Of a stretch of DNA of 36,757 nucleotides, positions 30,447 through 34,088 are shown piece after piece. Made by a program: the position numbers and the translations under genes. The stretch comes from Bacteroidales bacterium (lineage in GTDB: Bacteria > Bacteroidota > Bacteroidia > Bacteroidales > UBA3824): contig JAGCDD010000449.1 of the NCBI GenBank assembly GCA_017651345.1, positions 1 to 36,757 of the forward strand. The letters run 5' to 3'. Below the pieces are notes generated by a model that was not told the DNA's origin, searched no databases, and worked only from the letters and a program-made list of their open reading frames with translations. How positions within the stretch are numbered: the stretch's first letter is position 1; every line of letters starts with the position of its first letter.

Positions 30447-30562
30447 AACTAAAATTTCAGTTTATTAACTGAAAAATAAGTTGTATAATTGAAACATAAG
30501 TTTTATCTTTGCGTTATAAATATCATAACTAATTTATCAGTTATAAAACTTAAAAACAAATT
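30447..30562 (+). promoter_or_regulatory. Operator array of AAYT-N8-ARTT 16-mers, 20-bp grid, upstream of TonB gene 1
   Basis: Five 16-base elements start at 30447, 30467, 30487, 30527 and 30547: AACTAAAATTTCAGTT, AACTGAAAAATAAGTT, AATTGAAACATAAGTT, AACTAATTTATCAGTT and AACTTAAAAACAAATT. All starts fall on a 20-bp grid; only the slot at 30507, which holds the -7 box, is empty. The 30527 element has six-base perfect arms when extended (ATAACT/AGTTAT). Two copies at 31287 and 31307 lie in front of the BlaI-type gene at the same distance from its -7 box. Most likely these are binding sites for that repressor. The region is AT-rich, so the weaker elements (30447, 30547) could be chance. Confidence 0.65.
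30481..30511 (+). promoter_or_regulatory. Promoter of TonB gene 1
   Basis: TTG at 30481-30483 and TATCTTTG at 30504-30511, 20 bases apart, match the Bacteroidota consensus well. The -33 box lies at the edge of one operator 16-mer, and another fills the spacer, so a bound repressor would block polymerase. Confidence 0.8.
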
Positions 30563-30592
30563 TTAGTATCAACAATTAAAAAACGCAAAGCC

Positions 30593-31282
30593 ATGGAACA
30601 GAAAAAATCAGAGAAAGCCAATCTCCAAAGCAAGAAGTTCACCTTCTTAGAAATCGGTCTTGTACTTACCCTATTGGCTATTTGGGGAGTATTTGAATTT
30701 AGCACCAAAGCTGAAAGTGCATCAGCATTCAACCAAATTACATTAACCGTCGACGACGGCTTAATCGAAATTCCCGTCACCCATTCCGAACCACCGCAAC
30801 CTCCTGCGCCGCCAGTTCGCAAAATTGCCGAAATTATTGAAGTAATAGATGACCCTGAAACAATTTGTGGTGATCCGCAAATCGACGCTGAAATAGACAT
30901 TGACGCTGCCGTGCAAATCGAAGAATTACCTTCACCATCATGCAGCGACGAGATAATAAGCGAAGAAGACTTACCTCCGTTCATTGTCTGTGAAGATATG
31001 CCCGAATTCAGAGGAAACCTATTAAAGTATGTTGCCGAGCACGTAGTCTATCCCGAAGTAGCTAAAGAAAACGATATTCAGGGAACAGTATACATAGGAT
31101 TTGTTATCAACGAAAAAGGCAAAGTTACCGATGTAACCTTAACCAGAGGCGTTGACCCACTGTTAGACAAAGAGGCTCTCAAGGTGGTTGAAAACCTTCC
31201 TGATTGGAAACCCGGAAAACAATCAGGCAAAAATGTAAAGGTAAAGATGTGTATACCGATAAAATTTAAGCTTTCAAACTAA
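30593..31282 (+). CDS. TonB-family energy transducer, paralogue 1, with four periplasmic cysteines
   Basis: 229 residues. Cytosolic N-terminus MEQKKSEKANLQSKK, one transmembrane helix at about 17-34 (FLEIGLVLTLLAIWGVFEF), a proline-rich periplasmic stretch (PPQPPAPP), an acidic linker, and the TonB C-terminal domain at about 132-229 (DMPEFRGNLLKYVAEHVVYP, GTVYIGFVINEKGKV, LPDWKPGKQSGKNVKV). It should couple proton motive force to outer-membrane receptors through ExbBD. It is a close paralogue of the gene at 33399, but lacks the GGEKA after the MPEF motif and has four cysteines (ETICGD, SPSCSD, FIVCED, VKMCIP) where that paralogue has none. It has its own promoter with the shared operator array. 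Confidence 0.9.
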   Translation: MEQKKSEKANLQSKKFTFLEIGLVLTLLAIWGVFEFSTKAESASAFNQITLTVDDGLIEIPVTHSEPPQPPAPPVRKIAEIIEVIDDPETICGDPQIDAEIDIDAAVQIEELPSPSCSDEIISEEDLPPFIVCEDMPEFRGNLLKYVAEHVVYPEVAKENDIQGTVYIGFVINEKGKVTDVTLTRGVDPLLDKEALKVVENLPDWKPGKQSGKNVKVKMCIPIKFKLSN

Positions 31283-31286
31283 AAAA

Positions 31287-31362
31287 AACTTAAAAATAAG
31301 TTTGATAATTTAAAAATAAGTTATATATTTGCAAAACCAATTATAAAACTAACAAGTCAATT
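31287..31362 (+). promoter_or_regulatory. Operators upstream of the BlaI-type gene, same 20-bp grid
   Basis: AACTTAAAAATAAGTT at 31287-31302 (a perfect dyad: AAACTTA-AAAA-TAAGTTT when extended) and AATTTAAAAATAAGTT at 31307-31322, 20 bp apart. A weaker AACTAACAAGTCAATT at 31347-31362 is again on the grid, skipping the -7 slot. The second element is centred 9.5 bp before the -7 box, exactly as at TonB gene 1. BlaI/MecI repressors bind such short dyads as dimers and usually repress their own gene. Confidence 0.72.
31301..31331 (+). promoter_or_regulatory. Promoter of the blaI-M56-TonB operon
   Basis: TTTG at 31301-31304 and TATATTTG at 31324-31331, 19 bases apart. The -33 box overlaps the first operator dyad. 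Confidence 0.8.
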
Positions 31363-31387: not shown

Positions 31388-31750
31388 ATGGAACAGTTGA
31401 CCAAAGCAGAAGAAAAGGTGATGCAGATATTATGGAAACTTAAATCTGCATTTGTAAAGGACATCATAGAGCAGATGCCCGACCCCAAGCCGCCGTACAA
31501 TACCATATCGTCGGTGGTAAGGATACTCCGCGAGAAAGGTTTTGTAGACTTCAAGGCATACGGCAAAACCTACGAGTACTTTCCCGCTGTCAGCAAACTC
31601 GCCTACAAGAAATACACTTTCGGGCAGATGCTGAAAAACTACTTCGACGGCAGCTACGAAACCATGGTATCTTACATGGTGGACGAAGAGCCGGTATCCG
31701 AACGCGAAATAAGCGAAATAAAGCAGATTATCGACCAAAGATCTAAGTAG
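31388..31750 (+). CDS. BlaI/MecI/CopY-family transcriptional repressor
   Basis: 120 residues. The N-terminal winged helix (about 1-70) has LTKAEEKVMQILW, VKDIIEQM, YNTISSVVRILREKGFV and KTYEYFPAVS, all typical of the Penicillinase_R family. The C-terminal helices (about 75-120) mediate dimerisation and hold the cleavage region in BlaI/MecI. It is two bases upstream of the M56 peptidase gene, the classic blaI-blaR1 pairing: the peptidase is expected to inactivate the repressor when its periplasmic sensor detects a signal. Operator-like dyads cover its own promoter and that of TonB gene 1. No beta-lactamase gene is nearby, so beta-lactam resistance should not be assumed. Confidence 0.93.
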   Translation: MEQLTKAEEKVMQILWKLKSAFVKDIIEQMPDPKPPYNTISSVVRILREKGFVDFKAYGKTYEYFPAVSKLAYKKYTFGQMLKNYFDGSYETMVSYMVDEEPVSEREISEIKQIIDQRSK

Positions 31751-31752
31751 AC

Positions 31753-33051
31753 ATGCTTTCGGCGGTGGCATACATAGTAGAATCATCGGTAATATTTGCA
31801 GTGCTTATAAATTTTTACAAATATGCCTGCTACCGTCAAACCTATTACAAGTGGGATCGATTTCTACTAATTGCCTGCATAGTAATATGCTACGCACTGC
31901 CGTTTTGCAAAATCAGCGGAGACGAATCTAACACCAAAGCCGAAACCGAACCTGTATCGATAACAGGCATCGCATTAGGCGAAAACAGCCACACAATCAC
32001 ACTCTCAAGGCAAACCACTTTTGCCACAATAGCCAAAAACGCACTACACAGCCCCACATTCCACACATTATTATTTATATTAATGATAGCGTATATAGTG
32101 TGCGCGGCAATAAAGGCAGTATCAGTATTATCTGCACTGCTAAAAATACTCCGACTAAGGCGCGGAAAGCCAGAAACAATTGACAACGGCATCAAAATTT
32201 ACACCGCCGAAAGTCGCACACCAGCGTTCTCGTTCTTTGACAATGTATTTGTAAACAAGGCGTTCTGCAACCTCGACAGCCGTTCGCAAGAGATAATTCT
32301 CAACCACGAACGCCAGCACATACGCGGACGCCACAGCATTGATGTTATCATCTTTGCCATACTCTCAATAGTGCAATGGTTCAACCCTGCTGTTAAAAAA
32401 GCCGCAGCACTCAGCCGACAGATTTGCGAAAACATAGCCGACTCGTCTGCCACCGAGGGCGACAAAAAAGAGTACGCGCTGCTTCTATTAAAACTCGGCA
32501 GCAACAACCCCACACCTTCGTCAGCAGAAACAGACACAGAAGGCAGTCTCAAAAACCGTGTGCTCAATATCTACTCTTACGATAGCGCACAAAACCGCAA
32601 AATACGATTTGCCTGTTCGCTACCCATATTGTTATTGTTAATAATCTGTTACCTGATAATAGGCGGCAAAATGAGCACAAAAAACAAAGACGGATTAGAG
32701 TTTCCAATAAAAGGCGGCTACACATTGGCAGCAGAATACTTTGAAGACCGAATTTGCACAATAAAGGATGGACGGAAATATTACGTTTCGCATCCCGAAA
32801 CAGCATTCTACGTACCCGAAAACACAGTAATTGTTGCACCGATTACAGGCACAGCCACATCAGCAAACGACAACGAAATTGCCATAACATCGGGCGACAC
32901 CACTATCACTATCAAATACTTATCGTTGGTAAGCAAAAGCAAAACGGTAACACTCGGTCAAGAGATAGGGCGAGCCACTACCCTCCCACTGTCGATAAAA
33001 ACCGAAATAAAAAACAAAGCAATCGACCCAGCGATAATATTCAACTACTAA
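31753..33051 (+). CDS. BlaR1/MecR1-like M56 metallopeptidase with degenerate LytM/M23-like sensor domain
   Basis: 432 residues. Membrane segments are predicted near 5-21, 36-52, 103-125, 196-212 and 285-304. The M56 zinc motif is HERQH at 185-189 in LNHERQHIRGRHSIDV, with a possible third ligand Glu226 in ICENIAD. The periplasmic tail (about 316-432) follows the LytM/M23 outline: FPIKGGYTLAAEYFEDR, then TVIVAPITGTATSA, NEIAITSGDTTITIKYLSLV and KTVTLGQEIGRAT. The metal-binding HxxxD and HxH positions read HPETA and SIK, so it is probably a binding module, not an enzyme. BlaR1 has a penicillin-binding domain at this place; here a cell-wall ligand is a reasonable guess. Confidence 0.87.
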   Translation: MLSAVAYIVESSVIFAVLINFYKYACYRQTYYKWDRFLLIACIVICYALPFCKISGDESNTKAETEPVSITGIALGENSHTITLSRQTTFATIAKNALHSPTFHTLLFILMIAYIVCAAIKAVSVLSALLKILRLRRGKPETIDNGIKIYTAESRTPAFSFFDNVFVNKAFCNLDSRSQEIILNHERQHIRGRHSIDVIIFAILSIVQWFNPAVKKAAALSRQICENIADSSATEGDKKEYALLLLKLGSNNPTPSSAETDTEGSLKNRVLNIYSYDSAQNRKIRFACSLPILLLLIICYLIIGGKMSTKNKDGLEFPIKGGYTLAAEYFEDRICTIKDGRKYYVSHPETAFYVPENTVIVAPITGTATSANDNEIAITSGDTTITIKYLSLVSKSKTVTLGQEIGRATTLPLSIKTEIKNKAIDPAIIFNY

Positions 33052-33090: not shown

Positions 33091-33285
33091 ATGCAAAACA
33101 AAAAATCAGCAAGTGCCGACCTTGAAAGCAAACGAGGAATAATGTTTCTGATAGGTCTTGCCATATCGCTAGGGCTGATATACGCAGTGTTGAGCTACGA
33201 AAAGCCCAAGCCCACATACGAGGAGGTAACAGTAACCCTCCCGGCGGAAAGTTTAATCATCACCGAAATAATTTCTCCGCCATAA
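33091..33285 (+). CDS. 64-residue TonB N-terminal-like microprotein or remnant
   Basis: Starts MQNKKSASADLESKRG and continues into one transmembrane helix (about 18-36, FLIGLAISLGLIYAVLSY), then KPKPTYEEVTVTLPAESL and stops at IISPP. The first 40 residues align with both flanking TonB paralogues (KKS-x-A-x-L-x-x-K pattern, then the helix), but it ends where their proline-rich segment would begin. After the stop there is no recognisable TonB C-terminal domain before the next gene. It may be a truncated duplicate or a functional small protein that competes for ExbBD. It starts 39 bases after the M56 gene, in the same operon. Confidence 0.7.
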   Translation: MQNKKSASADLESKRGIMFLIGLAISLGLIYAVLSYEKPKPTYEEVTVTLPAESLIITEIISPP

Positions 33286-33398: not shown

Positions 33399-34088
33399 AT
33401 GGAAGAAAAAAAATCACAAAAAGCCGATCTCGAAGGTAAGAAAACCATCTTCTTAGAAATCGGTTTCGTTCTCACCCTCTTAATTGTGTGGTGGGCGTTC
33501 GAATTCAGCACAAAAGCAGAAAAAGCTGAAGACCTCGGTACAGTTGCATTCACCGAAGACGTTGTAGAAGAAATTCCTATCACTCGTCAAGAGCAGATAG
33601 AGCTTCCTCCTCCACCTCCTCAACAAACCGTTGCCGACATTATTGAGGTGGTAGACGACAAAATCGAAATCAACGAAGACCTCACAATCGACGAAGCTGA
33701 CGAAAACACAGCCGTTGAAATTCAAGAAATTGTAGAGGTTGCACCCGTTGAAGAAGAAGAAGAAGAGGCAGCACCTTTCGTTATCGTAGAGGATATGCCC
33801 GAATTCAAAGGCGGTGAAAAAGCTCTTTTGAAATATATTGCTGAACACGTGGTTTACCCCGAAATTGCAAAAGAAAACGACATTCAGGGTACAGTATACG
33901 TTAAGTTTGTAATCAACGAAAAAGGCAAAGTTACCAACGTAGGACTTCTCCGTGGCGTTGACCCCTTGCTCGACAAAGAGGCAATCAAAGTTATCGAAAG
34001 CCTTCCCGATTGGAAACCCGGCAAACAGTCTGGTAAAAACGTAAAAGTTTCGATGCAGGTGCCCATCAAGTTTCAGTTAGCAAACTAA
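33399..34088 (+). CDS. TonB-family energy transducer, paralogue 2
   Basis: 229 residues. N-terminus MEEKKSQKADLEGKK, helix at about 17-36 (FLEIGFVLTLLIVWWAFEF), proline run LPPPPPQQ, a strongly acidic linker (VEEEEEEAAP near 124) and the TonB C-terminal domain (DMPEFKGGEKALLKYIAEHVVYP, GTVYVKFVINEKGKV, LPDWKPGKQSGKNVKV). It keeps the full MPEFKGGEKA motif that paralogue 1 lacks, has no cysteine, and is the more canonical of the two. It is last in the blaI-M56 operon and is followed by a strong terminator. The 113 bases before it are AT-rich, with no clear promoter. Confidence 0.93.
   Translation: MEEKKSQKADLEGKKTIFLEIGFVLTLLIVWWAFEFSTKAEKAEDLGTVAFTEDVVEEIPITRQEQIELPPPPPQQTVADIIEVVDDKIEINEDLTIDEADENTAVEIQEIVEVAPVEEEEEEAAPFVIVEDMPEFKGGEKALLKYIAEHVVYPEIAKENDIQGTVYVKFVINEKGKVTNVGLLRGVDPLLDKEAIKVIESLPDWKPGKQSGKNVKVSMQVPIKFQLAN

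Follow-up and report, generated by a model that had tools for sequence, protein, structure and literature searches.

A row of predicted BlaI operators with a 20-bp phase at the blaI and tonB-1 promoters of a Bacteroidales bacterium

Introduction

In the window, by which we mean the whole stretch of 36,757 nucleotides of Bacteroidales DNA that was analysed, a gene for a BlaI/MecI/CopY-family repressor (blaI, 31388..31750, 120 aa) is preceded by tonB-1 (30593..31282), encoding a TonB_C-domain protein of 229 aa (PF03544, E=1.2e-20), and followed by the gene of a BlaR1-type M56 membrane metalloprotease (31753..33051; PF05569, Peptidase_M56, E=1.8e-16) with a degenerate M23-like C-terminus; a second tonB gene (tonB-2, 33399..34088, Pfam TonB_C) lies 3' of the M56 gene. 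All genes and elements located in the window are on the + strand. As short dyads recur at regular intervals in front of both tonB-1 and blaI, we were interested whether BlaI binds them, which would make tonB-1 its first target besides its own operon, how far such rows are spread and what their spacing means.

The predicted repressor has a full-length domain, with PF03965 (Penicillinase_R) covering residues 4-117 and profile positions 1-115 of 115 (E=1.4e-30), and is homologous to proteins of solved structure (MecI 1okr, E=1.8e-12; BlaI 1sd4, E=2.7e-4). It is 79-98% identical in 17 named relatives, all Bacteroidales assemblies and many of them ruminant-derived. Judging from conservation and letters, it appears to share the BlaI-family trait of dyad operators at its own promoter.

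Dyads and promoters share one register

A preliminary description of this DNA had listed eight 16-mers of the form AAYT-N8-ARTT, and all eight were found. Those at the tonB-1 promoter are the predicted operator dyads T1 (AACTAAAATTTCAGTT, 30447..30462), T2 (AACTGAAAAATAAGTT, 30467..30482), T3 (AATTGAAACATAAGTT, 30487..30502), T4 (AACTAATTTATCAGTT, 30527..30542) and T5 (AACTTAAAAACAAATT, 30547..30562). The last bases of T2 overlap the TTG of a -33-type element (30481..30483), which is located 20 bp 5' of the -7 box (TATCTTTG, 30504..30511, invariant across five species); T3 is the proximal dyad and lies inside the -33/-7 spacer, and T4 lies 3' of the -7 box. At the blaI promoter, the predicted operator dyad B1 (AACTTAAAAATAAGTT, 31287..31302), whose outer 6+6 letters form a perfect palindrome, overlaps at its end a TTTG as -33-type element (31301..31304); the predicted proximal dyad B2 (AATTTAAAAATAAGTT, 31307..31322) again occupies the spacer, followed by the -7 box (TATATTTG, 31324..31331) and the predicted dyad B3 (AACTAACAAGTCAATT, 31347..31362). 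The consensus of most window dyads is near AAYT[GT]A-N4-T[AC]ARTT. TACA and TGTA, the halves of the TACA-N2-TGTA operator of the studied Gram-positive BlaI/MecI members, are absent from all eight.

As had been proposed, the register is the same at both promoters, with the centre of the proximal dyad 9.5 bp 5' of the -7 box. One base separates the end of this dyad from the TAnnTTTG box, and a TTG or TTTG is found 19-20 bp 5' of the box, a layout which we take to be that of a Bacteroidota -33/-7 promoter. The grid slot at the -7 box had been described as empty. This is correct for tonB-1, but at blaI the slot contains a degenerate dyad (ATTTGCAAAACCAATT, 31327..31342) only one letter off the AAYT-N8-ARTT motif. 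Since in 12/18 species of the genus the slot at blaI is filled by an AATTGC-N4-TCAATT dyad that overlaps the -7 box, an empty slot as a general rule was rejected. The idea of an exactly shared DNA face had to be given up as well, as, with 10.5 bp per turn, a 20-bp step misses two full turns by 34 degrees; neighbouring dimers would thus be nearly, not exactly, aligned.

The phase, not the single site, exceeds chance

Taken singly, the 16-mers are not significant in the window: 13 were seen versus 8.35 expected, and at least 13 occurred in 6 of 100 shuffles. The looser form with up to three mismatches stayed under expectation in the window (160 versus 174.8), and genome-wide the one-mismatch form was at background (162+167 versus 179+172 for the reversed pattern). 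Because of this background-level frequency, lone 16-mers were rejected as evidence on their own. Clustering and phase of the dyads, in contrast, are significant. The tonB-1 intergenic region reached a chain score of 12 with five in-phase sites, and the blaI intergenic region a score of 6 with three; none of 3000 first-order Markov randomisations of each region reached these values (maximum 5 and 4 respectively). Equal grids in shuffled sequence, which had been named in advance as an outcome that would refute the proposal, were thus not obtained for either intergenic region, nor for the upstream regions of the homologues described below.

Half-sites are conserved within the genus

For a sister-species comparison, four sister species were aligned to the window and cells were scored at the window's site positions. 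At tonB-1 only 2/160 half-site cells were changed, both at the last base of T5 (in two of the four species), which makes T5 the least conserved of T1-T5; at the blaI promoter it was 1/96, in B1 and in one of the four. Outside the sites, 77/372 cells (20.7%) were changed at tonB-1 and 42/320 (13.1%) at blaI, and Fisher tests of half-sites against core plus outside gave 5.5e-11 and 8e-5 respectively. Alignment gaps were located outside the dyad rows. T1, T5 and B3 had been called weaker than the others, which is supported for T5 by the lost last base but not for T1 and B3, as these kept all half-site letters in all four species.

blaI was found in all 18 genomes of the genus that were examined, and by chain score, with sites of up to two mismatches counted, a row lies 5' of blaI in 18/18 species; under the strict pair rule 15/18 were positive. 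With weak sites included, three dyads are in phase in five of these species, four in three and five in ten, and several species show a single step of 21 instead of 20 bp. In one species (G013, L028:1380-1500), the sequence at the blaI promoter is of the type found at the tonB-1 promoter of its sisters, which suggests loss of a tonB-1 copy with promoter fusion.

Rows precede blaI beyond the genus

The same-order set comprised 97 BlaI homologues with upstream DNA, i.e. 30 genus loci (all with loci among 32 places) and 67 others, drawn from the best-scoring 68 of 150 with one near-duplicate skipped; from 98 loci L077 was dropped because no start was found, and L064, with 13 bp of upstream DNA, was counted as a miss. 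Tandem dyads of the same spacer, with up to two mismatches and 19-22 bp apart, were accepted as a pair. In this set, which includes the best 68 of 150, such a pair was detected 5' of blaI in 75/97 homologues (randomised mean 0.35, maximum 2) and was absent by this rule from 22/97. With spacers free to differ, a pair without any mismatch was found in 44 same-order homologues, again including the best 68 of 150, and in none of the randomised sequences. Free-spacer counting would give 77/97 in the same order and 11/29 in a class/phylum sample, compared with 75/97 and 10/29 in the same-spacer recount.

A further set, referred to as named loci, was found by peptide patterns from the window's BlaI and limited to the best 80 of 198, a procedure that favours close relatives. 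In these best 80 of 198, all 63 loci outside the genus carried a pair (randomised mean 0.2, maximum 1). As L168 and L170 share their contigs with L053 and L054, 61 of the 63 are new; L233 is apparently on the same contig as L215. Most named loci come from Pedobacter and Mucilaginibacter, others from Larkinella and further Sphingobacteriales and Cytophagales. Conservation in related loci, which the preliminary description had named as a check, is thus borne out in the genus, in the same order and in the named loci.

The paired sites 5' of blaI have a consensus of the AACT-N8-AGTT type. Their distances peak at 20 bp (45/67 other same-order promoters, 60/61 named), followed by 40 bp and, in the genus, also 60 bp; in the named set distances of 27 and 47 bp recur in 12 and 9 promoters. 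A -7 box exactly 1 bp after the dyad (one mismatch allowed in TTTG) was observed in 61/62 named and 49/75 pair-bearing same-order promoters, and in 19/75 of the latter no -7-like box was detected 0-4 bp after the dyad. Together, the 20-bp step and the register of the box fit the -33/-7 geometry, in that one dimer would fill the spacer and its neighbour would reach the -33 element. When dyads in phase were counted (without L064 and the named L168-L170), only two were present in 35/57 other same-order promoters and three in 53/60 named ones, which suggests that two or three suffice there.

At greater distance the row becomes less frequent. In the class/phylum sample just 10/29 homologues passed the pair rule, and an 18-bp step was seen in three. 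In six of the seven loci L254-L260 (L254-L256 and L258-L260), TTCTA-N6-TAGAA dyads are exactly 20 bp apart, and a -7-like TACATTTG lies inside the first dyad. These six belong to another of the phylum's BlaI branches, and their first dyad has the classical TACA/TGTA core. The others have one dyad, a poor dyad or none. A palindrome scan free of any motif placed 20 bp on top in the genus (6/18), in other same-order loci (24/66), in the class (7/21) and in L254-L260 (4/7), and 21 bp among BlaI paralogues (8/12). In the named loci it gave no 20-bp top, 27.5 bp leading with 2/60, because mixed half-sites fail its 5-of-5 rule.

Operator letters vary with the BlaI helix

For position 5 of the operator, BlaI residue 36 was the best predictor among 120 columns (R2 0.937), followed by residue 42 (0.882). 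Pro36 goes along with mostly T or G at position 5 (mean fraction of A 0.12, n=85), Ala36 with A (0.98, n=39). Both residues fall in a stretch that aligns with the segment of MecI which we take to be its recognition helix. This link between residue and letter points to BlaI as the probable binder. Most of the covariation reflects two clades: a tree built without these columns, and without L064, L168 and L170, contained four supported independent pairs, in which residue 36 changed the same way in 1.7, the opposite way in 0 and not at all in 2.3. With so few independent switches a sign test cannot reach significance, and the covariation was rejected as statistically independent proof. Exceptions are L030 and L223, with Pro36 and A at position 5 in half or more of the sites, and L123, with His36 and mostly G. 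Inside the Ala clade, L128 and L145 have Pro together with TAAGTT-type dyads, L128 also with a TAGTT dyad alongside. A paralogous BlaI of the genus has its own 17-bp version, AACTA-N7-TAGTT or near, 5' of its own gene in all 12 loci fetched, and the rows of this type have steps of 21 or 19 bp.

The target set appears small

Co-regulation of the two operons had been proposed, and in agreement with it both promoters carry a row in all five genus species that have tonB-1 directly before blaI. In the organism's own genome the strict 16-mer occurs at 11 places, with an in-phase 16-bp partner only at four in the window. Among the 21 loci examined, L015 has a two-mismatch 17-bp pair near a one-mismatch place, which was taken as chance. 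A 99% complete relative (G002) gave 12 places, six at the blaI and tonB-1 promoters and six alone. When 494,085 bases around the best 80 of 198 named loci were searched outside blaI promoters, rows were found only at the four tonB-1 promoters present, beside blaI. A comparison of 27 TonB loci, in which the ORF taken differed from the matched ORF in L086, L092, L105 and L107, showed no operator row in front of tonB-2, and in G015 a weaker five-site row at a different tonB copy (L105). As rows are nearly restricted to two promoters, the circuit looks small, consisting of blaI-M56 and tonB-1. A paralogous BlaI was not found in the own genome; this assembly is 90% complete, so that another BlaI could be missing from it.

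A model for repression, and its alternatives

The computed features, i.e. presence, phase, conservation, near-restriction to these two promoters, -7 register and co-segregation with the helix, are very probably explained by the 16-mers being operators of the predicted BlaI encoded at 31388, which would block the promoters of blaI-M56 and tonB-1, with M56 probably relieving this block. From the sequences we infer that BlaI dimers would occupy dyads 20 bp apart, presumably in contact with each other, one in the -33/-7 spacer and the next reaching the -33 element; additional dimers might lengthen the row in both directions, 5' and 3'. Once bound, BlaI would exclude RNA polymerase from the blaI-M56 promoter, resulting in autoregulation, and from the tonB-1 promoter. 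By analogy to BlaR1 and beta-lactams, M56 would probably lift repression on sensing an envelope or cell-wall signal.

Among the alternatives, the least unlikely is that just the two core dyads at the -33 element and in the spacer are operators, and that T1, T4, T5 and B3 have another role or are relics of duplication. The prevalence of two dyads in other same-order promoters and of three in named ones agrees with this, as does the loss of the last T5 base in two sister species. We nevertheless consider it unlikely, since the half-sites of T1, T4 and B3 are the same in all four sister species and four or five dyads are in phase in 13/18 genus species, weak ones counted. That BlaI is a mere neighbour and an unlinked regulator binds the dyads is considerably less probable still. 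BlaI binding is predicted from sequence, and some homologues have no row, but the row tracks blaI in its own order and in the named Sphingobacteriales and Cytophagales, the operator letters vary with the helix and with the paralogue, and in the best 80 of 198 named loci, rows that do not belong to a blaI promoter are confined to tonB-1 beside blaI.

A site for activation or DNA architecture instead of a repressor block would account for the presence of dyads not only over the promoter but also 5' of it. We regard this as marginally more improbable than a foreign regulator, as the proximal dyads occupy the -33/-7 spacer and mostly keep one register, which is where a block would be expected to sit, and as those members of the BlaI family for which studies are available are repressors. 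Finally, the similarity of some units (e.g. B1 and B2) and the tonB-1-type promoter before blaI in L028 might suggest that a 20-bp unit was recently duplicated in tandem in this AT-rich DNA and has no function. This reading is contradicted by the conservation, as the half-site letters persist in spite of diverging inner bases and flanks, by the same phase with diverged letters in other groups and by the lack of such a grid in randomised sequence, and can practically be dismissed. We therefore retain repression by BlaI from a phased row as the best explanation.

Relation to known BlaI-type systems

In Clostridium thermocellum, BlaI_0696 and BlaI_1845 were mapped by DAP-seq, and the authors think that two ordered inverted-repeat sites per target are a strict requirement; the regulons comprise three and one operons, with autoregulated operons that include BlaR1 genes (PMC8457756). 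These proteins belong to the same family, and their half-sites GTCTAT and GACTAT resemble ACTA, but according to the same source their targets have two dyads with half-sites five nucleotides apart, in another phylum, compared with up to five dyads here, and its operator section does not state a promoter-tied 20-bp phase (PMC8457756). The TACA/TGTA operator is hence not universal in the family, as the published C. thermocellum sites differ from it, too (PMC8457756).

For the CopR-CopY family a 16-base cop operator, RNYKACANNTGTMRNY, is described, with two operators in 67/88 promoters, distances of mostly 24-39 bases (mode 26) and a proposed block of the -35 element and polymerase (PMC7253601). 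In our own comparison, the AACTA-N6-TAGTT class fits positions 1-5 and 12-16 of RNYKACANNTGTMRNY; CopY differs by its inner CA/TG, which is missing here, by copper sensing and, in the distances given there, by having no 20-base mode (PMC7253601). Staphylococcus and Bacillus licheniformis BlaI/MecI are reported to have several operators per control region (OP1-OP3; R1 and Z dyads), and a peptidoglycan fragment has been proposed as coactivator (PMC5460165, PMC3305447). The pairing of repressor and membrane metalloprotease is common to these systems and to the window, whereas the systems as described there have TACA/TGTA operators, a penicillin-binding domain on the sensor, which was not found in the window's M56, and beta-lactamase or PBP2a as targets in place of TonB (PMC5460165, PMC3305447).

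Operator pairs have thus been described before, in CopY and Clostridium BlaI; the novel features are a consensus for Bacteroidota, the promoter-matched 20-bp phase and row lengths of up to five dyads. In open-licence literature, covered mostly at the level of titles and abstract openings, no description of a Bacteroidota BlaI operator was found. Consensus and geometry can be used for finding BlaI targets in Bacteroidota; the operator phase is tied to the unusual promoter of this phylum; operator position 5 and BlaI residue 36 form a testable pair of letter and residue; and the 20-bp spacing 5' of blaI in many relatives provides a testable rule for the silencing of targets by the predicted repressor. 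As a tentative, though quite possible, generalization, spacing may be conserved more than letters in Bacteroidota BlaI systems, the 20-bp phase matching the -33/-7 spacing across at least three operator alphabets (AACT[GT]A..T[AC]AGTT, AACTA..TAGTT and TTCTA..TAGAA). If true, contact between dimers along the promoter would be an ancestral trait, and the length of the row (two, three, up to five) would act as a dial of repression strength.

The putative M56 sensor and its probable tie to TonB

The HExxH motif of the M56 protein is located at residues 185-189, and H185, E186 and H189 are invariant in 19 aligned proteins. No C-terminal penicillin-binding sensor domain was among its Pfam matches listed at E up to 1, and the NCBIfam BlaR1 model gave a score of 26.8, far under its cut-off of 400. 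The C-terminus aligns with Peptidase_M23 domains, which are above the Pfam cut-off in the relatives L168, L169 and L170 but not in the window's protein. A scan of ten M56 proteins revealed M23 in three, Amidase_3 in two (L180, L229), POTRA in one (L172) and none of these in four, including that of the window; the sensor end is swapped between lineages, with M23 in L168-L170 and Amidase_3 or POTRA domains in others. From these domains, M56 may fairly be taken to sense a cell-wall or envelope signal, and the locus connects TonB with a BlaR1-type protease in which no penicillin sensor can be recognised.

In the interval that separates the M56 gene from tonB-2, an ORF of 64 residues was noticed (33091-33285), for which the first 36 residues of TonB-2 are the sole part matched (36% identity, E 7e-8 in a single comparison); it is apparently what is left of a third tonB copy. 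Two other contigs of the same assembly have 17-bp pairs of the paralogue type with a 21-bp step. One (C189:6572-6609, corresponding to L231:1073-1110) lies 5' of an M56-TonB_C fusion gene, the other (C225, L322:1440-1477) 5' of a gene starting at 1577 whose product has an AhpC-TSA/thioredoxin-like domain, possibly a further target of the paralogous repressor. In the paralogous loci L109 and L110, M56 and TonB_C are likewise fused in one protein, which supports a functional connection of M56 with TonB. In L109 the M56-TonB_C gene is arranged tail to tail with a gene for an S13 D-Ala-D-Ala carboxypeptidase.
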